DNA of 60,648 nt from Methanomethylovorans sp. (GTDB taxonomy: Archaea > Halobacteriota > Methanosarcinia > Methanosarcinales > Methanosarcinaceae). The position numbers were made by a program, and so were the translations under genes. The DNA is taken from NCBI GenBank assembly GCA_014361205.1, contig JACIVZ010000002.1, forward strand, positions 1 to 60,648, written 5' to 3'. The notes under the pieces were generated by a model that made no database searches, was not told the origin of the DNA, and worked only from the letters and a program-made list of their open reading frames with translations. Below are positions 30,328-60,233 of the stretch, piece after piece (the first letter of the stretch is position 1; every line of letters starts with the position of its first letter).

Positions 30328-32712
30328 ATGGATACATGTATAATTGATACACCGCTAAAAAAAGAAAAAAATGATGAAGGGATTGAGCAAAAACTTAAGT
30401 TCACTGGTTGCGTTCAGGAGGGTATGATCTCATCTCAAAAACAGGCAGTACAGAAGACCCTTGACGGTCATTCCATATCCGTGATGCCAAAAGTACGTAC
30501 AACTGACGGGCATATGGTAGAGTGGAACCGTAATGTAGTTGTCAACCAGTTGATAAAGGAAACAAAACTTGCCGAAAGGTTTCATAATAAACCAGGGATA
30601 ACTAAAGAAGAAGCCCAGGAAATTGCAAAGGATACTGAAAGACGTATAAGACAGCTAGACCTTAAATTCCTTTCTGGACCTCTCATCAGGGAAATGGTCA
30701 ATATGATTCTTCTGGAGAGAGGACATATAGAATGGAGAAACGTATCCACAAGAGTAGGTACTCCGGTATATGATGCCTGTGAAATAGATTTGGGATCCGG
30801 TTTTGAAGCTAAAGACAATGCAAATCTGCAGGAAAATGCAGAAACATCACATAAGAAAAAAGCAGATAAGATTTCTAAAGAGCAATATTTACTGCTTTTG
30901 CCACCAAAACTTGCAGACCTGCATCTAAATGGTGATTTACACATCCATGATCTGGAATATCTTGGAACTCGTGCCTTTTGTCAGGACTGGGATCTTAGAT
31001 ATTTTTTTTATTATGGCCTCATGCCTGATGGATCCGGCGCCAAGGCTAGTGTTGCTGGGCCTGCAATGAAAGCAGAGGTTGCTATTTTACATGCAGTAAA
31101 AGCACTCGGAAGCGCTCAAACCAACTTTGCGGGAGGTCAGGGTTTCTATAATTTCCTAACATTCCTTGCACCTTACTTCGAAAGCAAGAGCTACAAGGAA
31201 ATCGAGCAGCTCATGCAGATGTTTGTTTATGAGATGACGCAGATGATGGTAGCCCGTGGGGGTCAGGTTGTTTTCTCTTCGGTCCAGTTGTCTCCGGGTG
31301 TACCTAAACTTTGGAAAGATATCCCAGTAGTATATAAGGGAAAAGTACATGATGGCACAAATGGTACTGTAAGGCGCACATATGGAGAATTTGAACGTGA
31401 AGTCAGGCTGAGCTTTGCCGCTCTTATGAACGTAATGCTCCAGGGAGATAATTGGGGCAAACCGTTTAATTTCCCAAAACCAGAAATATCCATTGAACCT
31501 GATTTCATGCAAGAGGACGAGTTATTTAATCGTGCCCATCCAGAACTTCCCACATATGATGATCTTTATACCCTTGCATTTGAACTGGCTGCAAAATTTG
31601 GTACTCCTTACTTTGATAACCAGCTTCCTGAGTATAGAGGTGCAGGAAAAGGCATCTCATGTTATCAATGCTGTGCTTATCAATTTTCTGCTAATGCGGA
31701 TGAAGATGACTGTTTTGAAGACAAGCTATATTTCAGGGATGGAAAACATTTCTCTATGGGTTCATGGCAAGTAGTGACACTTAATTGCCCAAGAGCTGCA
31801 TATAGAGCAAATGGTGATGATAAGGCTTTGTTTGCAGATCTTAAGGGGCTGATGGATCAGGCGATAAAGATATTCGCAACCAAGAGAAAATGGATGGAAA
31901 ACATAATAGAAAATGAAAGAATGCCCTTTGCCACACAGCGCCCAAAAGATCCTCAAACCGGCAAAAAGGGTTCAATAGCTGTGGACATAGATGCTTTAGT
32001 ATATACAATTGGAGTTGTTGGCATTAACGAGATGGTTCACTACCACACAGGTTACCAAATCCATGAATCAAAGAATGCTTTAAAGTTTGCTGTAAGAGTG
32101 ATGACTGAGCTGGAAATGTATGCACGTGAGCTAAGTCAAAAACACGGAATTCAGATTGCACTGGCAAGAACACCTGCGGAAACAACCGGTCAGAGATTTG
32201 CAGTGTCTGATCTGTTGCACGAAGAATACACAAATTGTGCAAGACAGGTTGTACAGGGAGACTTGGAGAAAGCATTGGCAAAAATAAAGGAGACTCATGA
32301 TCTGCCTATATATTACACCAATGGAACTCATGTACCACCCAGTGCTGATATATCCCTTGTGGAAAGGATTAAGATAGAACATGTATTCTTCCCCATAGTC
32401 GATGGAGGCAATATATGTCATATATGGTTGGGCGAAAGCTCACCTGACCCAAAAGGACTCAAGGAGTTTGCCATGAACATAGCCAAGAACACACAGGTGG
32501 GATACTTTACATTTACTAAGGATATGACAGTTTGTCTGAATGATTTTCATATGATGTCAGGACTTAAAGATATCTGCGAGAACTGTGGCTCTTCTAATGT
32601 AGAGCAAATGTCCAGAGTTACCGGATATATACAATCAGTAAGTGGCTGGAATGCAGCTAAGAAACAGGAACTGATAGATAGGAAGAGATATACAGTAGCT
32701 GGCATAGCCTGA
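30328..32712 (+). CDS. nrdD: Anaerobic ribonucleoside-triphosphate reductase NrdD (with ATP-cone)
   Basis: 794 aa from the ATG at 30328, which has GGAGGG upstream. An ATP-cone (about residues 40-140: VRTTDGHMVEWNRNVVVNQL ... MILLERGHIEWRNVSTRVGTP) provides allosteric control by ATP/dATP. The catalytic ten-stranded barrel holds the cysteines of GKGISCYQCCAY and the HIHDLEYLGTRAFCQDW segment. Near the end come zinc ligands (CENC plus an earlier Cys) and the glycyl-radical motif RVTGY. It reduces NTPs to dNTPs without oxygen. nrdG follows after ten bases. Confidence 0.96.
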   Translation: MDTCIIDTPLKKEKNDEGIEQKLKFTGCVQEGMISSQKQAVQKTLDGHSISVMPKVRTTDGHMVEWNRNVVVNQLIKETKLAERFHNKPGITKEEAQEIAKDTERRIRQLDLKFLSGPLIREMVNMILLERGHIEWRNVSTRVGTPVYDACEIDLGSGFEAKDNANLQENAETSHKKKADKISKEQYLLLLPPKLADLHLNGDLHIHDLEYLGTRAFCQDWDLRYFFYYGLMPDGSGAKASVAGPAMKAEVAILHAVKALGSAQTNFAGGQGFYNFLTFLAPYFESKSYKEIEQLMQMFVYEMTQMMVARGGQVVFSSVQLSPGVPKLWKDIPVVYKGKVHDGTNGTVRRTYGEFEREVRLSFAALMNVMLQGDNWGKPFNFPKPEISIEPDFMQEDELFNRAHPELPTYDDLYTLAFELAAKFGTPYFDNQLPEYRGAGKGISCYQCCAYQFSANADEDDCFEDKLYFRDGKHFSMGSWQVVTLNCPRAAYRANGDDKALFADLKGLMDQAIKIFATKRKWMENIIENERMPFATQRPKDPQTGKKGSIAVDIDALVYTIGVVGINEMVHYHTGYQIHESKNALKFAVRVMTELEMYARELSQKHGIQIALARTPAETTGQRFAVSDLLHEEYTNCARQVVQGDLEKALAKIKETHDLPIYYTNGTHVPPSADISLVERIKIEHVFFPIVDGGNICHIWLGESSPDPKGLKEFAMNIAKNTQVGYFTFTKDMTVCLNDFHMMSGLKDICENCGSSNVEQMSRVTGYIQSVSGWNAAKKQELIDRKRYTVAGIA

Positions 32713-34714: not shown

Positions 34715-37700
34715 ATGAAAACCCGTTTAGGTTTTGTTATATATTTAGTATTGATAGTGCTAGCAGGGGGAGCAAATGGGATTCCCAGCATTTCTGATTA
34801 CTCTCCGGCAAGCAATCCGACTTCTACATTGGGCGAGGAACAAATATTCAGAGTATCTGTAAATGAAACATGTAATGTTAGTTGGTACTTAAATGGTGTT
34901 GAATTCAAAACTGATGAGAATGTAACAACTGCAGAATATTCTAACAACACTGCACCAGCTGGTGAATATGAAGTCAAAGCTGTAGCACAGAACGTCAATG
35001 GAAGAGTTGAACATACGTGGACATGGATCGTGGCAAATGAATCTTTATCTATAATAGATTTCAATCCTCACGATACAAATATAAATTCAATAACTGATGC
35101 CACAGTGAATTTCAATGTTACCCTTAATCAGGAAGCTTCTATTATATGGCTTATTGATGGAAATCAAATGAAAACCACAAGTGGGTTTTCAGATTCATAT
35201 TCAAATAATACAGCTGTGGCTGGCACATATAATGTAACAGTTATTGCATCTAATATTAATGGTATTGACCAGCATACTTGGAACTGGAATGTTTCAGCTG
35301 CAAAAAACGAAACACTTGAGCTTACCGGTTTCAACCCCACAGATACAAATCCCGAATCATTAGCAGGGGATACTCAGGAATTTAATATAACACTCAACCT
35401 GGAAGCTATGATACGATGGCTCATTGACAATATTGAAATGGATTCGGATACAGGTTCCTTTAGTTCATATACAAACAGCACAGCTGTTGCTGGGACATAT
35501 AACGTAACAGCAATTGCAGTAAATGGAAACAACTCTGTTCAGCAGGTATGGACATGGACCGTTAAAGAAGCTGAAAATGATTCTCTTAATATTACAGATT
35601 TCAGCCCAAAAGAAGAAACTACAACTGTGGTTGGTACCTACCAGCAATTTACGGTTAAAACCAATCAAGATGCAGATATTGAATGGTATATTGGTGAAAA
35701 TCTGGAACAAAAGAATGAATCTGTATCATTTGCATCATTCAATGTTTCTAAAAATGATATAGGATCATATAATGTAACAGTGAAAGCATCAAATGCGAAT
35801 GGAGAGTCCCAGAAAAAATGGACATGGACAGTTGTTCCCAAGACATATCAAAGTGGGGATCGCATATGGGATGCTAATGCCAATCAAGCTCTTGATTATA
35901 CATGGACTGCTCTGAGCTACTCCGGTTTCTACTATGACCTTGACAGTGGCGAAGGATCGGAAACCATGACAATACATCTTGACAGCAGGTCTGACAGGTC
36001 TATTGGAAGAGGAGACCTGATATATGAGACCACACCAATTGCAACCGATTTTAAGTATCGCAATTGGGGAAAGTATCAAGTCATAGGTTTTATGGCTGAG
36101 AAATATTTTGCAGGTTATCTTGATACTACTCAGTTTGCTGATGAGATTAGCGTCATGTCGGATGGTATACTTGCAAAGGTACTCATAGACGAAAATGATA
36201 AAAAATCTCTTTTTGCTGGTTCAAGTCTTACACTTGAAAATGGCTATTCACTGAATATAGTAGAAGTTGATGTCAATGGGAATAACGTATATGTCACCCT
36301 TTCCAAAGACGGATCAAAAGTTGACGAGACAATCGTTAAAGACAACGGGACATATGTTTATGAAACGGATTTAGGAGATAGAGACGATGTACCCATCATA
36401 GCAGTTCATTTCGGGAATATATTTATGGGTACTGAAGCCAGTGCAGTATTTGTTGATGCTATCTTCCAGATCTCTGATGAATATATTAGTATTGAATCCG
36501 GTGACAAATATGGAGTTATGGAAATCACTACCGTAAGTGATGAGAAAATCACCATGGAAAATGATGATCCTATTTCCCTTAATAAGGGCAGAGTTGTGAG
36601 TATAATGGGAAAACTAAAATTCATCATTGCTGATGATTCTGTACTGAGATTTGCTCCTTTTGTTGACATGTCGGAAGTAGGCACATATGAATTGAGAGGT
36701 ACTGTTGCTGAAGGAGAATTTGAGTGGACACCACTTAACTTTGAGGGCTTCTACTACAATATTGATGAAGGTATTGGTACTGAAAAACTTGAGATTACTG
36801 AGTTGTCAGGAAGAACAATTCGAGCTGGTGATCTTGTTTATACTTCTACCCCAGAGGAAGTGAGTTTTGAGTATGATGACTGGGGAAATTTTGAAGTGAT
36901 GGGCTTCATGGCTGAGAAATATTTTGCAGGATATCCAAAAAATGAATTTACAGATGAAGTAAGCCTGGTTTCTCAAGGTCAGTTGTCAAAAGTTCTTATT
37001 GATATGAGTGACAAAAAATCTCTTACAGCTGGTTCATCCTTAGTGATGGAAGAAGGTTATGCCCTAAATATTGTTGAAGTTGATATAAATGGTAAGACTG
37101 TTTATGTTACTCTTACTAAGGATAGTGATGAGGTAGATAATGATATCATCGCCTCAGGAGGTACCTATGTATACAAAACTGATGTAGGAGATGTTGATGA
37201 TGTACCTGTTATAGTTATTCACTTCCAGGATGTCTTCCAGGGAACAGAAAGCAGTGCGGTTTTTGTTAATGGTATCTTCCAGATATCAGATGATTATGTG
37301 TCTGTAGAAACCGGTGAAACTTTTGATAAAATGGAAGTAACAGGTATTTCAGAAGACGGCATTAAAATGGAAAATAAAGATTCAATATCGCTTTCAAAAG
37401 GTAAAGATATCTCAATAATGGGAAACATTAAGTTTAAGGTGGCAGATGATAATACTGTCAGGTTTTATCCGTATGTGGAAATCAAAAATCTATCTTCGGA
37501 ATCACTCACCATAGATAATGAACAAGTAGTGGCTCAAGGTATTGCAATGACTATTAATGTCACTTCCAGAGGTGTAGGTGTAAGTAATGCCACCGTGAAA
37601 ATAGATGGTGAGAACATTGGCTCAACCTCAGATCAGGGAATGTTGCGATATACACCCAATAAGATAGGTAATTTCACCATCACTGCAGAAAAAGAAGGAT

Positions 37701-38413
37701 ATATTTCTGCAAGTTCTAAACTGGAAGTAATATCGCCTCAGGATGAGTCACGTAAGATGACTATTGAGATTATCCCAGAAGAGGTTTATGAAGGAACTAA
37801 TGTTAAATTCCGGGTTCTCAAAGCTATAGATGGTGAAGCTATTGAAGGGGCAGAGGTAGCTTTTGATGGAGAAAAAATTGGCAATACTTCAACAAATGGA
37901 GAAATTAATTATACAGTTACAGAAGTGGGTATGCACAAGGTGACCGCTTCTAAGTCTGGATTATTAAATGCTGAACTGAACTTTGAGGTAAAAGAACTTG
38001 CTGCAAAGTTCACCTTCACGAACCTGCGGATTTCACCACTTGAAATAAGGGCAGGAGATAAAGCAACAATATCTGTAGATGTAGCAAATACAGGTATGCT
38101 ACCTGGAAATTACACTGTTGAATTAAAAATCAATGGTAACGTTGTAGATTCTCAGCTAGTATCACTTGATAGCGGAAATTCCACTACGTTAAAATTCTTG
38201 CATGTGGAAAAAGATCCAGGCACATACATTGCCTCGGTGCAGGAATTGAGTGTAACATATGAAGTACTTGAGAAATCTGGTACTATCTGGTACATACTTG
38301 GAGGTATTATTCTTTTGGCTGCTGCAGGAATTGGTTATCTATTCACTGCTGGTGGTTGGACAGTAGAGATGGCAAGGGAAAAATTAGATGAATTTATCGG
38401 TTCTCTCCGATAA
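34715..38413 (+). CDS. Large S-layer-related surface protein with Ig-like repeats
   Basis: 1232 aa. A signal peptide (LGFVIYLVLIVLAGGANG) is followed by four Ig/PKD-like repeats of about 90 aa (roughly residues 25-375), each ending in a HTWTW or QVWTWTV-type strand. Then come two copies of the Methanosarcinales S-layer domain (about 379-650 and 655-925), which share FMAEKYFAGY and DKKSL-AGSSL blocks. Two carboxypeptidase-regulatory-like Ig domains and a CARDB-like domain lead to a C-terminal membrane anchor (IWYILGGIILLAAAGIGYLF). Many NxS/T sequons imply N-glycosylation. It could be the main S-layer subunit or, more likely given the extra domains, a large surface adhesin. Confidence 0.82.
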   Translation: MKTRLGFVIYLVLIVLAGGANGIPSISDYSPASNPTSTLGEEQIFRVSVNETCNVSWYLNGVEFKTDENVTTAEYSNNTAPAGEYEVKAVAQNVNGRVEHTWTWIVANESLSIIDFNPHDTNINSITDATVNFNVTLNQEASIIWLIDGNQMKTTSGFSDSYSNNTAVAGTYNVTVIASNINGIDQHTWNWNVSAAKNETLELTGFNPTDTNPESLAGDTQEFNITLNLEAMIRWLIDNIEMDSDTGSFSSYTNSTAVAGTYNVTAIAVNGNNSVQQVWTWTVKEAENDSLNITDFSPKEETTTVVGTYQQFTVKTNQDADIEWYIGENLEQKNESVSFASFNVSKNDIGSYNVTVKASNANGESQKKWTWTVVPKTYQSGDRIWDANANQALDYTWTALSYSGFYYDLDSGEGSETMTIHLDSRSDRSIGRGDLIYETTPIATDFKYRNWGKYQVIGFMAEKYFAGYLDTTQFADEISVMSDGILAKVLIDENDKKSLFAGSSLTLENGYSLNIVEVDVNGNNVYVTLSKDGSKVDETIVKDNGTYVYETDLGDRDDVPIIAVHFGNIFMGTEASAVFVDAIFQISDEYISIESGDKYGVMEITTVSDEKITMENDDPISLNKGRVVSIMGKLKFIIADDSVLRFAPFVDMSEVGTYELRGTVAEGEFEWTPLNFEGFYYNIDEGIGTEKLEITELSGRTIRAGDLVYTSTPEEVSFEYDDWGNFEVMGFMAEKYFAGYPKNEFTDEVSLVSQGQLSKVLIDMSDKKSLTAGSSLVMEEGYALNIVEVDINGKTVYVTLTKDSDEVDNDIIASGGTYVYKTDVGDVDDVPVIVIHFQDVFQGTESSAVFVNGIFQISDDYVSVETGETFDKMEVTGISEDGIKMENKDSISLSKGKDISIMGNIKFKVADDNTVRFYPYVEIKNLSSESLTIDNEQVVAQGIAMTINVTSRGVGVSNATVKIDGENIGSTSDQGMLRYTPNKIGNFTITAEKEGYISASSKLEVISPQDESRKMTIEIIPEEVYEGTNVKFRVLKAIDGEAIEGAEVAFDGEKIGNTSTNGEINYTVTEVGMHKVTASKSGLLNAELNFEVKELAAKFTFTNLRISPLEIRAGDKATISVDVANTGMLPGNYTVELKINGNVVDSQLVSLDSGNSTTLKFLHVEKDPGTYIASVQELSVTYEVLEKSGTIWYILGGIILLAAAGIGYLFTAGGWTVEMAREKLDEFIGSLR

Positions 38414-43022: not shown

Positions 43023-44825
43023 CTAGCAATGCATCCTATACCTGTACCTCTGAGAATACTCTGCTTTTTTGCCTGGATTCCAGTGGTTAACATGACCATA
43101 GTAACCTGTTACCCTCGATATATGATCAATAACAGGGCTTGTGCACATAGGACAGAATTCATTCACTCCTCTGGAAGTATGACCCTTCTCACATACAGAA
43201 AAATCTGGAGAAAAACAGAAATAAGCAAGCTTCGTTCCAGCCAATTTCCGAACAAATTCATTAAGACCAGCTGGATCGGGATAACTTTCACCCATCCATA
43301 TATGACATATAGTTCCTCCATTAAAAAAAGGATGGAACTCTGCCTCAATATTGATCCTATCTACAAGAGAAATAAGTGCATTATAAGGTAGATGAGTGGA
43401 ATTTGTATAGTAATATCCTCCTTCAATACCCTGGACGTTAGCTTTTTTCCCGAAATTTATTTTGTCGATCATGGCAAGCCTATATGCAGTACTTTCTGCA
43501 GGTGTTTGCTCAAGAGTGTATTCAATGTTGTCTTCATTGGAGAACTCCTCTATCCTCTTAACTATATGAGCAATTATCTTCACACCAATTTCTGTTTGTT
43601 TGTCGATACCTTCTCCTGTAAGATTCATGAGACATTCGTTCATACCTACAACACCAAATGTTAAATGGCGCTTCTGAAAATCAAAATAAGGTACACCATC
43701 ATCTGTTTTATTGAGCAGCCATGGCATAAGTTCCCATTCATAAAGCGATCTTCTGATTATATCCTGACTTTCCAGCAATGCTTTACGAGCAACTTCAAGA
43801 GCTTTATCCAGCTGTGAAATGAAATCGTTTTCATCTGCTGAGCGGAGGGCTACGCCGGGCAAATTGATGGTCACAACCTTATTGGAGCCCGTACCTATGC
43901 CACCTGCCGTCCAGATACCCCCTGCATGACGACTCAGTAATCTGCAACACATAGCATGCACCGTATCCTCTTCCAGATAAGGAGCCGCAAGGTTCAGGAA
44001 ATAAGGAGCACCGGTAGCAGAAGTGGCCTGCATGGTCTCCATCCATAGAGGATCATTGAAATCATGATCTTTGGCGATTGCCGTAGTTATGAGAGGAAAT
44101 GTAAACGGAGCTCCGGTGGAATCACCGTAGGTCGAAACCTTTACGAATGCACTGTAAATCTGTCGTGCCTCATCTTCAAATTCACTATATGTTGCATCAA
44201 GTATTTTACCTCCGTAGACCACTCTTTCATCTTTCAGTGCCGGTGGACATTTCAATCTCAGACCGATGTTAGTAAAAGCGCTCTGCGCCCCTATCCTGTT
44301 GGACTGGTTCATCTGGAACATGAAACTCTGCACTGTCTGGTATATCATGGGCTCGTTCATTTTCTCATAATGCAAATGTGGGGCGAGCAGCCAGTTGAGC
44401 ATGTCCACAGCCTGAGCACCTGCAAAGAATTGCTGGGAATGCATCATAAAAGACATTACATGAAACAATGCAGAATCCAGTCTTTTAGCAGGGAGGCTGC
44501 GGGTATCAGGAAACTTCAGGCCGTCCATAAGAATTATACGTCCATCAATGCCGTTACAATAGGGCATGAAAGGGCTATGCAGATCATGGATATGTATCAG
44601 GCCTTCCAGATGGGCTTTTGTGACATCCTTAGAGTAAAGTTTTTCCAGAGCATATCGTTTTTTGACCTGGGATGCAATATGCAGATCTATCACCGAAGGG
44701 CTGGCCCTGGTGTTGGAATTTTCTGTAAGCAACCAGTTTTTTTTGAAGAGCACATCGTCTATGAGCTCCACAGGGTCCTTGAAATCAAGCCTGTCTACAT
44801 TATCCCCACTTGACATATTAGTCAT
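43023..44825 (-). CDS. Second anaerobic ribonucleotide reductase NrdD, lacking the ATP-cone
   Basis: 600 aa (an ATG at 44816 is an alternative start). It matches class III reductase: HIHDLHSPFMPYCNGIDG near residue 75, the catalytic-loop MCCRLLSRHAGG, late zinc ligands CEKGH...CPMC, and the glycyl-radical site RVTGYYGHVNHWN. Unlike the 794-aa NrdD it has no ATP-cone, so dATP feedback through that domain is absent. No activase or redoxin lies beside it, so it may rely on the NrdG near 33 kb. It could also be a paralogue of another glycyl-radical role, but the core motifs favour ribonucleotide reduction. Confidence 0.88.
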   Translation of the reverse strand: MTNMSSGDNVDRLDFKDPVELIDDVLFKKNWLLTENSNTRASPSVIDLHIASQVKKRYALEKLYSKDVTKAHLEGLIHIHDLHSPFMPYCNGIDGRIILMDGLKFPDTRSLPAKRLDSALFHVMSFMMHSQQFFAGAQAVDMLNWLLAPHLHYEKMNEPMIYQTVQSFMFQMNQSNRIGAQSAFTNIGLRLKCPPALKDERVVYGGKILDATYSEFEDEARQIYSAFVKVSTYGDSTGAPFTFPLITTAIAKDHDFNDPLWMETMQATSATGAPYFLNLAAPYLEEDTVHAMCCRLLSRHAGGIWTAGGIGTGSNKVVTINLPGVALRSADENDFISQLDKALEVARKALLESQDIIRRSLYEWELMPWLLNKTDDGVPYFDFQKRHLTFGVVGMNECLMNLTGEGIDKQTEIGVKIIAHIVKRIEEFSNEDNIEYTLEQTPAESTAYRLAMIDKINFGKKANVQGIEGGYYYTNSTHLPYNALISLVDRINIEAEFHPFFNGGTICHIWMGESYPDPAGLNEFVRKLAGTKLAYFCFSPDFSVCEKGHTSRGVNEFCPMCTSPVIDHISRVTGYYGHVNHWNPGKKAEYSQRYRYRMHC

Positions 44826-45150: not shown

Positions 45151-47205
45151 TTGCTAATTTTAATATTACTTACAGGAACAGCTTTTGCAGATACAAGTGA
45201 CGACGACTATCTCAAGAAAGTAAATTTTGACAACAAGTCACTTGAGATAACTGATAATTTTAAAAATTTCGATGTGGTGACATCCAACACTGAAGCTTTT
45301 ATGAAAGCTGCAGAAAGTGGCAAGGTCAGATTAACTCTACTAGGAAAAGAGTTTGAGCTTGAGCTAAAAGAAACAAATGTAATCAGTGAAAGTGCGAAAA
45401 TAATCAAAGAGAATAAAACAGGCATCTATTTTGTAAATGCTCCACATGTAGATACCTATAGGGGATATGTAACTGGTAAGGATGATAGCAGAGTATCATT
45501 GACTGTAGCAGATGATGTTCTTATTGGAAGTATCAGGGTCGAGAATAAAACATATATCATTGACCAAACAAATCAAAAACAGGCTGGAAAGGTCATTCAT
45601 GTAGTTTATGATCTGGATGATTTTAAAGAACGAGAGATTAAAGAATACAATACTTGTGGTGTTGACGAAAAGGAAGAGGCTTTGAGCAATGAGCTATTCG
45701 CAGAGAGTTTGTCTTCTGAAGGAGCGATTACATCTTCCATATTAACTTACACTCAGATAGACATCCTGCCATGCTACGACCAAGGTTTTGAGGATGAATA
45801 TACAAATCCAATAGGTGAGATTGTAGCGATGGTCAACGAAGTAAATGGCGAATTAGCACATGCAAATGCAGAATTGAATATCCATTTCTTTAAAAGATAC
45901 GGGGACCTAAATGTTGGGAATGGTAATTCACATACCATATATTATTATTTTATGGATGATATAAAACCATATAGAAATATGACAGGTACTGATTTGGCTA
46001 TGTTGCTTTATGGAAATGATTTCACAGATGACACAATCGGGACAGGCTCCACTTTTAACGGCAGTTCGAATAGAGCTTATTCTGTGATTCAAATGGTATC
46101 TGCAGGTCTATTTAGCAGTTATCAAGCCACTTACAATGGCAGATGTGTCCTTATAACTCATGAACTCGGACACAATTTCGGTGCAACTCATGAAGAAGCT
46201 TATAGATGGCCTCTTGGTCTGAGTTGGCATTATACCTCTATGTGGTCTCCATTCACAGGCACTTCATTCTTAGATGACTATATGGAAGTTGAATACTCAG
46301 ATTTAAACCGCCGTGGAGATGCTTCACACAACAACATATTGCATGTGGCATCTAATAAAGATACTATAGCAGACTTTAAGGAATTAAATTCTGATGTCGA
46401 CACCGTTGGAGTTTACGACAATGCTGGTACTTGGGCCTTATGGAACCTATCTTCCGGTTATCTGGATATTGTTGGATTCGGATGGTCGGGTACAAAGCCG
46501 GTTGTCGGGGATTGGGACGATGACGATGAAGTAGAAGTTGGTATATATGACCCGGTAAATTACAGGTTCCTGTTACGGTTAGATTCAGGCAGTTACCAGA
46601 CAATTCCTCTCGGATGGGCTGGTGTTACTCCGGTTATTGGTGACTGGGATGGAAATGGAAATGATGAACCTGGGGTATATGATAATGCCGGTACCTGGGC
46701 TCTCTGGAACCGTAGTACTAATTCTGCAGATATTGTAGGATTTGGATGGTCAAACACAAAACCGGTTGTGGGTGATTGGGACAACGACGATGCAACTGAG
46801 GTTGGCATATACAACACTGCTGGAAACAATTTCTTGCTTAAGACCGGATCTAGTTATCAAACAATAGGCCTTGGGTGGGCTGGCGTTACTCCGGTTATTG
46901 GTGACTGGAATGGAGATGGAACAGATGAACCGGGTGTATACAATAATGCTGGTACTTGGGCACTTTGGGATCGTAATACAAATTCTGCATATACCGTTGG
47001 ATTTGGATGGTCTGGAACAACTCCTGTTGTAGGTCATTGGACTGGTGTTGATGGTAAAACTGGAGTTGGTATCTTTGAAGCGGCCAACAACAGGTTCCTG
47101 TTGCGGGTAGGTCCTTCTCCTTTGAATCCAGTATTTATAGATCTTGGGTTGAGTGGTGTTACTCCTGTAATAGGCCATTGGAATGAGTATTCAACGTTTG
47201 TTTAA
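45151..47205 (+). CDS. Secreted reprolysin-like (M12) zinc metalloprotease with beta-propeller repeats
   Basis: 684 aa in the open frame. The zinc site HELGHNFGATHE (about residues 336-347) is the metzincin motif HExxHxxGxxH, and a prodomain-like region precedes it. The C-terminal 270 aa hold six half-repeats of about 45 aa (GVYDNAGTWALWN... then GWAGVTPVIGDW(D/N)G(D/N)G), an FG-GAP/VCBS-like pattern with Asp-rich calcium loops, likely a substrate- or surface-binding propeller. In the listed frame only a short hydrophobic start remains. See the upstream out-of-frame signal peptide. Otherwise it is intact, so a frameshift, an indel or a phase switch are all possible. Confidence 0.8.
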   Translation: MLILILLTGTAFADTSDDDYLKKVNFDNKSLEITDNFKNFDVVTSNTEAFMKAAESGKVRLTLLGKEFELELKETNVISESAKIIKENKTGIYFVNAPHVDTYRGYVTGKDDSRVSLTVADDVLIGSIRVENKTYIIDQTNQKQAGKVIHVVYDLDDFKEREIKEYNTCGVDEKEEALSNELFAESLSSEGAITSSILTYTQIDILPCYDQGFEDEYTNPIGEIVAMVNEVNGELAHANAELNIHFFKRYGDLNVGNGNSHTIYYYFMDDIKPYRNMTGTDLAMLLYGNDFTDDTIGTGSTFNGSSNRAYSVIQMVSAGLFSSYQATYNGRCVLITHELGHNFGATHEEAYRWPLGLSWHYTSMWSPFTGTSFLDDYMEVEYSDLNRRGDASHNNILHVASNKDTIADFKELNSDVDTVGVYDNAGTWALWNLSSGYLDIVGFGWSGTKPVVGDWDDDDEVEVGIYDPVNYRFLLRLDSGSYQTIPLGWAGVTPVIGDWDGNGNDEPGVYDNAGTWALWNRSTNSADIVGFGWSNTKPVVGDWDNDDATEVGIYNTAGNNFLLKTGSSYQTIGLGWAGVTPVIGDWNGDGTDEPGVYNNAGTWALWDRNTNSAYTVGFGWSGTTPVVGHWTGVDGKTGVGIFEAANNRFLLRVGPSPLNPVFIDLGLSGVTPVIGHWNEYSTFV

Positions 47206-56823: not shown

Positions 56824-57255
56824 ATGGAATGCTTTACAGGACTGGAAATATCCCCAAAGAAGGTGGAGTACTTGAAGTTTCTTTTCAAAAAGGATGAGAC
56901 TGTACGGACAACTGACATTTCCTCGGAACTTAATGTAGACCCCTCTACAACAACAAAAACTCTTGCAGATCTTGCTGCTCAGGGGTATGTGGACCATGTC
57001 CCATACAGAGGAGTACGATTGACAGAAAAAGGCAAGGAATACGCAAGATTTCTGGTCCATAGACACAACATCTTAAGCCTTCTTCTTACCCATTACGGGC
57101 TTTCTGCCAAAGAATCTTGCCATGAAGTATCCAGATTCGAAGCCTACGTATCCAGAAATGCAATTGAGAAGATATGTGCCTCCATGGGACATCCCACTGT
57201 AAGCGTATGTGGAAAAATATCGCATGGTTCATGCAGTATTGGTGAACATTCCTGA
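56824..57255 (+). CDS. DtxR/MntR-family metal-dependent repressor
   Basis: 143 aa. The N-terminal winged helix (VEYLKFLFKKDETVRTTDISSELNVDPSTTTKTLADLAAQGYV ... YRGVRLTEKGKEYA) is followed by the metal-binding/dimerisation domain, with RHNILSLLLTHYGLS and CHEVSRFEAYVS (a Cys/His/Glu site). The last 25 aa (CGKISHGSCSIGEHS) add Cys/His. It lies directly upstream of znuA and probably represses zinc or manganese uptake when the metal is plentiful. It ends without the SH3 domain of DtxR. Confidence 0.85.
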   Translation: MECFTGLEISPKKVEYLKFLFKKDETVRTTDISSELNVDPSTTTKTLADLAAQGYVDHVPYRGVRLTEKGKEYARFLVHRHNILSLLLTHYGLSAKESCHEVSRFEAYVSRNAIEKICASMGHPTVSVCGKISHGSCSIGEHS

Positions 57256-57338: not shown

Positions 57339-58292
57339 ATGAACAAAGTTATCGAAATATTAGCAATATCTGCAATATGCGCCATATTACTGTTTAGCGG
57401 ATGTACTGAAAAAGCACAGGAAAACTCTGCAGAAGAAAAAACTTCGGGAGATAAAGTTTTAGTTGCGGTGACCATTGCCCCGCAGGCAGAATTTGTGGAA
57501 CAGATAGGTGGAAACAAAGTTCGTACAGTTGTTATGGTTCCTGCCGGTGCAAATGCACACACATATGAACCTACTCCAAACCAACTGAAAGATCTCAGCA
57601 ATGCACAAATGTATGTAAAATTAGGATCAAATATGGGGTTTGAACTTGCCTGGATGGATAAACTGCTGTCAATTAACTCTGATATGCATGTTGTTAACTC
57701 TTCCAGCGGAATAAAATTCAGGACTATGAGAGAGAATGAACAGGAATCACATGCGTATGAACATGAAGAAACTGAAGAACACGCCGAAGAAGAGCATGAT
57801 CACACTGGCCCTGACCCACATGTCTGGACTTCACCTCAGAATGCAAAGATAATGGTCAAGAACATATATGAAGGATTGGTAGCTATTGATCCGAATAATA
57901 AGGCAATATATAAACAGAATTACGATGCATATGTCTCTAAACTTGATGAAGTGGATGCCAAACTAAAAGCCGCACTTGCCGGAAAAGAAGGTACGAGTTT
58001 CATTGTATACCACCCTGCATGGGGATATCTTGCAGATGACTATGGATTACATGAGATTTCAATAGAAGTGGAAGGCAAAGAGCCAAGCGCAAAGGATATG
58101 AAAAAGCTAATAGACACTGCTAAAGAAAAAAGAATAAAAGTCATCTTTGTGCAAAAGGGATTCAGCACAGCAAGCGCACAGACAATTGCTACACAAATAG
58201 GAGGAGAGGTAGTTGAGATCGATCCCCTTGCAAAAGATTATGTAGATAACATGGAAAGGGTTGCTGATGCATTTGCAAAAGGACTGGAATGA
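57339..58292 (+). CDS. znuA: Zinc/manganese ABC transporter substrate-binding lipoprotein
   Basis: 317 aa. The signal ends in a lipobox (LLFSGC). The metal-binding ligands include the first His of AHTYEPTP and the GPDPHVWTSPQNAK motif, with a His/Glu-rich loop (ESHAYEHEETEEHAEEEHDH) between them, typical of ZnuA. The late conserved segment is VIFVQKGFSTASAQTIATQIG with Asp-Pro near the end. GAGGTGGA lies before the ATG. The ATPase and permease follow after a 364-bp remnant. Confidence 0.92.
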   Translation: MNKVIEILAISAICAILLFSGCTEKAQENSAEEKTSGDKVLVAVTIAPQAEFVEQIGGNKVRTVVMVPAGANAHTYEPTPNQLKDLSNAQMYVKLGSNMGFELAWMDKLLSINSDMHVVNSSSGIKFRTMRENEQESHAYEHEETEEHAEEEHDHTGPDPHVWTSPQNAKIMVKNIYEGLVAIDPNNKAIYKQNYDAYVSKLDEVDAKLKAALAGKEGTSFIVYHPAWGYLADDYGLHEISIEVEGKEPSAKDMKKLIDTAKEKRIKVIFVQKGFSTASAQTIATQIGGEVVEIDPLAKDYVDNMERVADAFAKGLE

Positions 58293-58656
58293 ATTATGTC
58301 ATGGTACTGGAGAATATTAATCTGCCAGTACACAGCAATATTTTTTGATAGTATTTATTCCAAAGGAAGAGTAAAAGATGTCTCTATTGATCTTACTTTT
58401 CCTATCAGTGTATAGTAAGCCCTGATGGAGCGCATGAATACTGGCGGCCCTTTGAGAGTTATATGGCAAAAAAGATTATCGGGTCGCACATATATCTTTG
58501 AAAAATATCAAAAGATTGGAATACCATCACCATCTCAGTAAATTGTCAGGTGGAAAGCATCTTTATTACAAGAACCTTTGTGGCCATGCTACTTGCAAAA
58601 GATTATATAGATAACATGGATAGGTTTGTTAATGCATTTGCAAAGGACTGGCATGA
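58293..58656 (+). pseudogene. Decayed partial duplicate of znuC plus the znuA 3' end
   Basis: This spacer is not random. It contains a broken copy of the beginning and middle of znuC: GTACTGGAGAATATTAATCT near 58312 matches the ATPase start region, CTTACTTTTCCTATCAGTGT near 58392 matches its core, and a TTGTCAGGTGG signature near 58540 matches LSGGQ. It then carries a second copy of the znuA ending (58592-58654 against 58228-58289). In-frame stops and deletions kill any product. It marks an ancestral tandem duplication of znuA-3'/znuC whose first copy decayed. Confidence 0.85.
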
Positions 58657-59406
58657 ATGACAAATGTCGTAGAGCTTCATGATGTATGGGTAAGTTATGG
58701 TAATGTCACTGTACTGGAGGATATAAACCTCACCGTACATGATAAAGATTTTTTGGGAATCATTGGCCCTAACGGAGGAGGAAAAAGTACTCTTCTTAAA
58801 GTGATCTTGGGACTCATAACACCTGACAAAGGTATTGTAAAACTTCTTGGAGATAAGCCTGAAAAGACGCACAAGTATGTGGGATATGTACCCCAATATG
58901 CCTCCTTCAATCTTACTTTTCCCATCAGTGTATGGGAAGTTGTCCTTATGGGACGTATGAACACTATTGGCCCTTTGAGAAGATATGGCAAAAAAGATTA
59001 TCACGCCGCACAGGAAGCTTTAAAAAAAGTGAAAATGCTGGAATACAAGGATCGACAGATCAGTGAATTGTCAGGTGGACAGCGTCAAAGAGTTTTTATT
59101 GCCAGATCCCTTGTGACCGACCCAAAGCTCCTCATCCTCGATGAGCCGGCAACAGGCGTAGACGCTGTAATGCAGAAAGAGTTCTATGAACTGCTGAAGG
59201 AACTTAAACAAAATATAGCTATCATAATGGTCTCTCACGATATCAGTGCTATTTCTATATACGTGGACAAAGTAGCCTGCCTTAACAGGAAATTACATTA
59301 TCATAATTCCAAGGAACTAAGTCCCGAAGACCTTGATGCTTCATATGCATGTCCCGTAGAAATGCTTGCACATGGAATGCCACATAGAGTATTTAAATTA
59401 CATTGA
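58657..59406 (+). CDS. znuC: Zinc/manganese ABC transporter ATP-binding protein
   Basis: 249 aa. Walker A GPNGGGKST, Q-loop PQYASFN, signature LSGGQRQRVFIARS and Walker B LLILDEPATGVDA are intact. The pattern matches ZnuC/MntB ATPases. The C-terminal tail (about 200-249) is family-typical. It starts just after the duplicate znuA tail (58592-58654), and znuB begins 12 bp after its stop, with GAGGTC as Shine-Dalgarno. Confidence 0.95.
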   Translation: MTNVVELHDVWVSYGNVTVLEDINLTVHDKDFLGIIGPNGGGKSTLLKVILGLITPDKGIVKLLGDKPEKTHKYVGYVPQYASFNLTFPISVWEVVLMGRMNTIGPLRRYGKKDYHAAQEALKKVKMLEYKDRQISELSGGQRQRVFIARSLVTDPKLLILDEPATGVDAVMQKEFYELLKELKQNIAIIMVSHDISAISIYVDKVACLNRKLHYHNSKELSPEDLDASYACPVEMLAHGMPHRVFKLH

Positions 59407-59417
59407 GGTCAAAAAAC

Positions 59418-60233
59418 ATGCTCGAGATCCTTCAGTACAGTTTCATGAAGAATGCTATTTTAACTGCGATACTTGCAAGCATAGCTTGTGGAATAATAGG
59501 CGTTTATGTCGTTGTGAAAAAGATATCTTCCCTTAGCGGAGGGATTACTCATGCTTCCTTTGGCGGTATCGGCCTTGGATATTTCCTTGGAACAAATCCA
59601 CTGTATGGGCTTATACCCTTCAGCCTGCTTTCTGCTCTTATAATGGGACTTGTAAGTAGGCGTTCAAAAGTATCAGAAGACACTGCGACCAGTATACTCT
59701 GGTCTCTGGGCATGGCACTGGGAATTATTTTTATATACCTGACACCAGGCTATGCACCCGATTTGATGACCTATCTTTTCGGGAACATCCTTACGGTATC
59801 CACATCCGACCTGCATTTAATGTTAGGACTTGATGTCCTTATATTGATAATAGTATATGCATTCTACAAGGAGTTCATGGCAATATCATTTGATGAAGAA
59901 TTTGCAACGGTAATAGGAGTTGCTGTGGAGCGTATATATCTTCTGCTTTTGTGCCTGATAGCCCTTACCATAGTGTTGCTCATCAAAGTAGTAGGTATAA
60001 TCCTTATCATAGCTTTGCTTACAATGCCAGCCAGCCTGAGTGCACATTATACATATAACCTTCGCAATATGATGTATCTCTCCATCTTCTTCGGAACATT
60101 TTTCAGTATAATGGGACTGATTCTTTCCTATGCCCTGGACATTCCCTCGGGTGCAACTATAATCCTTGTTATGTCAGGAGTATATATTATACATTTAATA
60201 TACGATAACATTAAAAAGAAGGTTCATGCTTAA
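59418..60233 (+). CDS. znuB: Zinc/manganese ABC transporter permease
   Basis: 271 aa from the ATG at 59418, with TGAGGTC upstream. It has eight or nine membrane helices, with the VVKKISSLSGGITHASFGGIGLGYFLG motif typical of ZnuB/MntC permeases and the conserved Asp/His-free pore part LLTMPASLSAHYTYNLR. It is the last gene of the metal-uptake operon. Confidence 0.94.
   Translation: MLEILQYSFMKNAILTAILASIACGIIGVYVVVKKISSLSGGITHASFGGIGLGYFLGTNPLYGLIPFSLLSALIMGLVSRRSKVSEDTATSILWSLGMALGIIFIYLTPGYAPDLMTYLFGNILTVSTSDLHLMLGLDVLILIIVYAFYKEFMAISFDEEFATVIGVAVERIYLLLLCLIALTIVLLIKVVGIILIIALLTMPASLSAHYTYNLRNMMYLSIFFGTFFSIMGLILSYALDIPSGATIILVMSGVYIIHLIYDNIKKKVHA

Follow-up and report, generated by a model that had tools for sequence, protein, structure and literature searches.

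The metal uptake operon of this Methanomethylovorans species poses the question of why its first two genes lie 364 nt apart, whereas in congeners the two abut. The window analyzed here, a stretch of 60,648 nt, is one whole contig of a 2.15-Mb archaeal genome. Four genes of the locus follow one another on the + strand. Upstream of the operon stands a gene for a DtxR/MntR-type metal-dependent regulator (56824..57255; Pfam PF01325 and PF02742), which scores under the NCBIfam MntR cut-offs. It is followed by znuA (57339..58292), an intact gene for a metal-binding lipoprotein with a His-rich loop (PF01297, E 6e-76), by the intact ATPase gene znuC (58657..59406; PF00005), and by the permease gene znuB (59403..60233; PF00950, E 3.5e-80), whose longest reading starts from TTG at 59403, the ATG at 59418 being the likelier start. 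The PF01297, PF00005 and PF00950 genes form one cluster, with a DtxR-type regulator gene ahead of those for solute-binding protein, ATPase and permease, as in ZnuABC/Mnt-type cluster A-I metal uptake ABC operons. NCBIfam zinc models and manganese models both match, both below cut-off, and the His-rich loop in the lipoprotein presumably favors zinc as the substrate. Compared with congeners, znuA is 79-81% identical in DNA and the znuC protein is 85-90% identical. A small multidrug resistance family gene (PF00893; 60271-60594, - strand) is convergent with znuB. Elsewhere, the window encodes a 1232-aa surface protein (34715-38413, +), S-layer-like by eye, with a C-terminal membrane helix and an internally duplicated domain (DNA repeat 36049/36865, 80%), as well as a 684-aa secreted metalloprotease-like protein (45151-47205, +) with a HELGHNFGATHE motif and C-terminal tandem repeats of ~261 bp (two, 189 nt each, at 80%) made of GWxGxTPVxGDW units. 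The two arms of a 69-nt inverted repeat (32402-32470 and 43253-43321), 77% complementary, lie 10.8 kb apart.

The interval from the znuA stop to the znuC start occupies 58293-58656, which agrees with the 364 bp given for it in an earlier note on this DNA. A repeat search returned colinear blocks that tie 58227-58561 to 58592-59086, and the similarity to the downstream unit starts at 58227, within znuA. The left end of the duplicated unit is therefore the 3′ end of the intact znuA (tail copy 1, 58227..58292, +), identical at 60 of 66 positions to 58592-58656. Next comes a decayed copy of znuC codons 1-154 (pseudo-znuC, 58294..58585, +; 76% against 58657-59124), then a junction, ATGCTA (58586..58591, +), in register with both GACCCA of znuC (59119-59124) and GATCCC of znuA (58221-58226). 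A second znuA 3′ end (tail copy 2, 58592..58656, +), a duplicate of the final 66 bases of znuA with a one-base frameshift, adjoins znuC. In a gapped alignment of 58227-58591 with 58592-59124, pseudo-znuC is identical at 224 of 295 positions (76%, the six junction bases counted). It has several frameshifts, its largest deletions are 43, 61 and 54 nt, its indels of 43, 1, 61, 1 and 8 nt are not multiples of three, and stops interrupt all three frames. In its intact form the duplicated unit (58592-59124, ~533 bp) comprises the znuA end and znuC codons 1 to 154-156, so that its znuC part ends ahead of the Walker B motif; the upstream unit is now 365 bp (58227-58591). These alignments bear out the earlier description of a decayed znuC copy and then a second znuA end directly before the intact znuC. 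Searching the genome at the protein level likewise recovered 58456-58560 as a znuC match. A small ORF at 58550-58660, with an ATGA overlap with the znuC start, has no Pfam match and is probably a chance reading frame.

Relatives place the event in time. The znuA stop touches the znuC ATG in all four congeners with the locus, a fifth congener assembly has no match, and the two genes are adjacent also in three genomes of another genus. The remnant is absent from all five congeners searched, and 59 other relatives searched yielded only the znuA end, znuC themselves, or short matches. A maximum-likelihood tree groups the remnant with its own znuC in 96% of 200 bootstraps, with branch lengths of 0.32 for the remnant and 0.04 for own znuC. 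Over the same alignment columns the remnant is 73% identical to own znuC and 64-66% identical to congeners. At sites polarized by four agreeing congeners, 45 have changed in the remnant only, 1 in own znuC only, and 3 are shared. Mismatches in the remnant are spread evenly over codon positions (26/18/27; uniform, p=0.36), whereas those of own znuC against congeners fall mostly on the third (14-16/5-9/62-69). The order of the copies, their lineage-specific occurrence, the tree and the lost codon-position bias together point to a tandem duplication confined to this lineage, after which the copy decayed neutrally. They show that the duplication postdates the split from the sampled congeners and that pseudo-znuC then decayed without constraint. 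The tandem duplication of the znuA end and znuC proposed in the earlier note, with decay of the first copy, thus stands in outline. Two of its elements need amending: only znuC codons 1 to about 154-156 were copied or survive, and decay has been slower at the second znuA end than in the rest of the unit.

Explanations other than duplication in place fare poorly against this evidence. That the resemblance is fortuitous, or that the spacer holds a functional non-coding RNA unrelated to znuC, can be set aside almost completely, since pseudo-znuC aligns to znuC with a local score of 165.8, far beyond the scores of 1000 random 298-nt pieces from the same window (mean 22.6, maximum 36.8); an Rfam search gave no match. 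A chimera of different strains, fused in a metagenome-like assembly, would find some encouragement in the 170 contigs of the genome and in the contig end 2 kb downstream. We nevertheless consider such an artifact highly improbable because a misjoin would yield intact sequence, while this fragment is decayed and its sequence is absent from all other searched genomes. The identity of just ~73-76% between pseudo-znuC and own znuC could suggest a fragment brought in by recombination from a foreign or paralogous znuA-znuC operon. This origin is very unlikely: the remnant is nearer to own znuC than to that of any congener, the excess change lies on its own branch and lacks codon bias, and a protein search found no second znuC of such a kind in the genome. 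On the evidence of the tree, a foreign source is not supported.

That the spacer is a fossil tandem duplication, whether formed in one step or two, is very probable, and we favor as the probable course a single duplication of the znuA end and part of znuC, followed by decay. Tandem duplications can form at short direct repeats. Here, likewise, the copies are direct and adjacent, and the junction is in register with a short word common to znuA and znuC; unlike in that general case, the junction has decayed, and the repeat is one that we infer. In the lineage of this species, the duplication would have taken in the last ~66 bases of znuA and the first ~154-156 codons of znuC, ~533 bp, probably via a short repeat GA(T/C)CC(A). 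Congeners have GATCCA or GACCCA before the znuA end, and GATCCA, GACCCC, GACCCA or GGCCCA in znuC. Given the GACCCA/GATCCC register, a crossover within such a shared word would fit the junction length and keep the reading frames in phase, suggesting microhomology at a breakpoint whose letters have since changed. Walker A and the signature motif would both have been present in the fused product, but Walker B would not, and the first znuC copy was thus probably dead from birth. Useless beside znuA, this copy would have decayed without constraint to 365 bp, znuA end included, while the downstream unit would have retained a complete znuC. The second znuA end would presumably have been retained for its position immediately ahead of the znuC start, to which it gives a translation signal and possibly a promoter. 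Against a single event stand the junction, whose six bases are now a poor match to both parents, the small number of shared derived sites (3/295 and 1 in the tail), and the slow change of tail copy 2, a pattern not expected had the entire unit decayed neutrally from one event onward.

This slow change sits badly with simple decay. Tail copy 2 has accumulated 2-3 substitutions in 66 positions (and lost one base), whereas pseudo-znuC has about 66-71 in 295 (p=4e-4); none of the substitutions in tail copy 2 falls in its first 33 bases (p=8e-4). Overwriting of tail copy 2 by copy 1 through gene conversion was considered and rejected, as changes specific to copy 1 are missing from copy 2. The slower decay suggests that the second znuA end is probably still useful, or was parted from a functional gene only later. 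Under the latter scenario, the initial duplication would have been larger, covering znuA and znuC in full at the least. The second znuA would have kept its function during the decay of the first znuC and possibly of znuB, and a deletion would afterwards have brought pseudo-znuC up against the end of this second znuA. Such a course would explain why tail copy 2 changed at the rate of a working gene (branch 0.03, versus 0.28 for pseudo-znuC) and why its unchanged first 33 bases extend well beyond the ribosome-binding site. It requires an additional event, however, and the spacer shows nothing else that derives from a second znuA or znuB, so we regard it as a credible but rather unlikely alternative to the one-step duplication. 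Tail copy 2 was thus either kept as a control region of znuC or was formerly the end of a complete second znuA until the later deletion; the sequence alone accommodates both.

Under the one-step duplication, the well-preserved tail copy 2 may carry start signals of znuC. AAAGGA, a ribosome-binding sequence, precedes the znuC ATG in this copy. A pattern search also picked out a BRE/TATA-like sequence, GCAAAAGATTATATAG (58595..58610, +), 47-62 bases ahead of the ATG, as a possible znuC promoter. Chance alone would produce about 0.7 matches of this kind per strand over the whole window, and TATA-like words can come from Tyr-Ile codons. Its counterpart in tail copy 1 is ATTATGTA, in which the BRE/TATA-like box is lost. 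Across eight genomes of two genera, synonymous conservation is higher at the znuA end (6/14 codons) than in the rest of znuA (9/102, p=0.003), and the znuC end showed no such effect in the same test; the promoter and conservation tests were picked after the data were seen. A promoter scan of the spacer, with a bacterial model not apt for archaea, stayed at chance level, and a look for terminator-like sites there found none. Methanolobus psychrophilus, a relative, has many gene-internal start sites, and Methanolobus promoters lie ~19-22 nt from start sites (PMC5378194). The slow change of tail copy 2 and the raised synonymous conservation of the znuA end would support the doubtful and still speculative proposal that the duplication split an overlapping double role of this sequence. 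The upstream copy would then encode the protein C terminus without a TATA-like box (ATTATGTA), and the downstream frameshifted copy, with its BRE/TATA-like box (ATTATATA) and ribosome-binding sequence, would now act solely as promoter and leader of znuCB.

Duplicated pseudogenes of prokaryotes have already been surveyed, ABC transporters included (PMC522871). As in those disabled native duplications, a disabled partial copy here lies beside its intact parent; in contrast to them, a piece of the neighboring gene was copied too, and the scar lies within an operon with the znuA end repeated (PMC522871). It is well supported that the remnant is an ordinary duplicated pseudogene inside an operon, of a known kind. 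Literature searches on zinc uptake in Methanomethylovorans and on duplication through microhomology returned nothing useful. The locus offers a clean archaeal case in which partial tandem duplication has opened up an operon, with congeners that keep the ancestral arrangement. If tail copy 2 was retained as a promoter, the duplication would have parted the coding and regulatory functions of one sequence.
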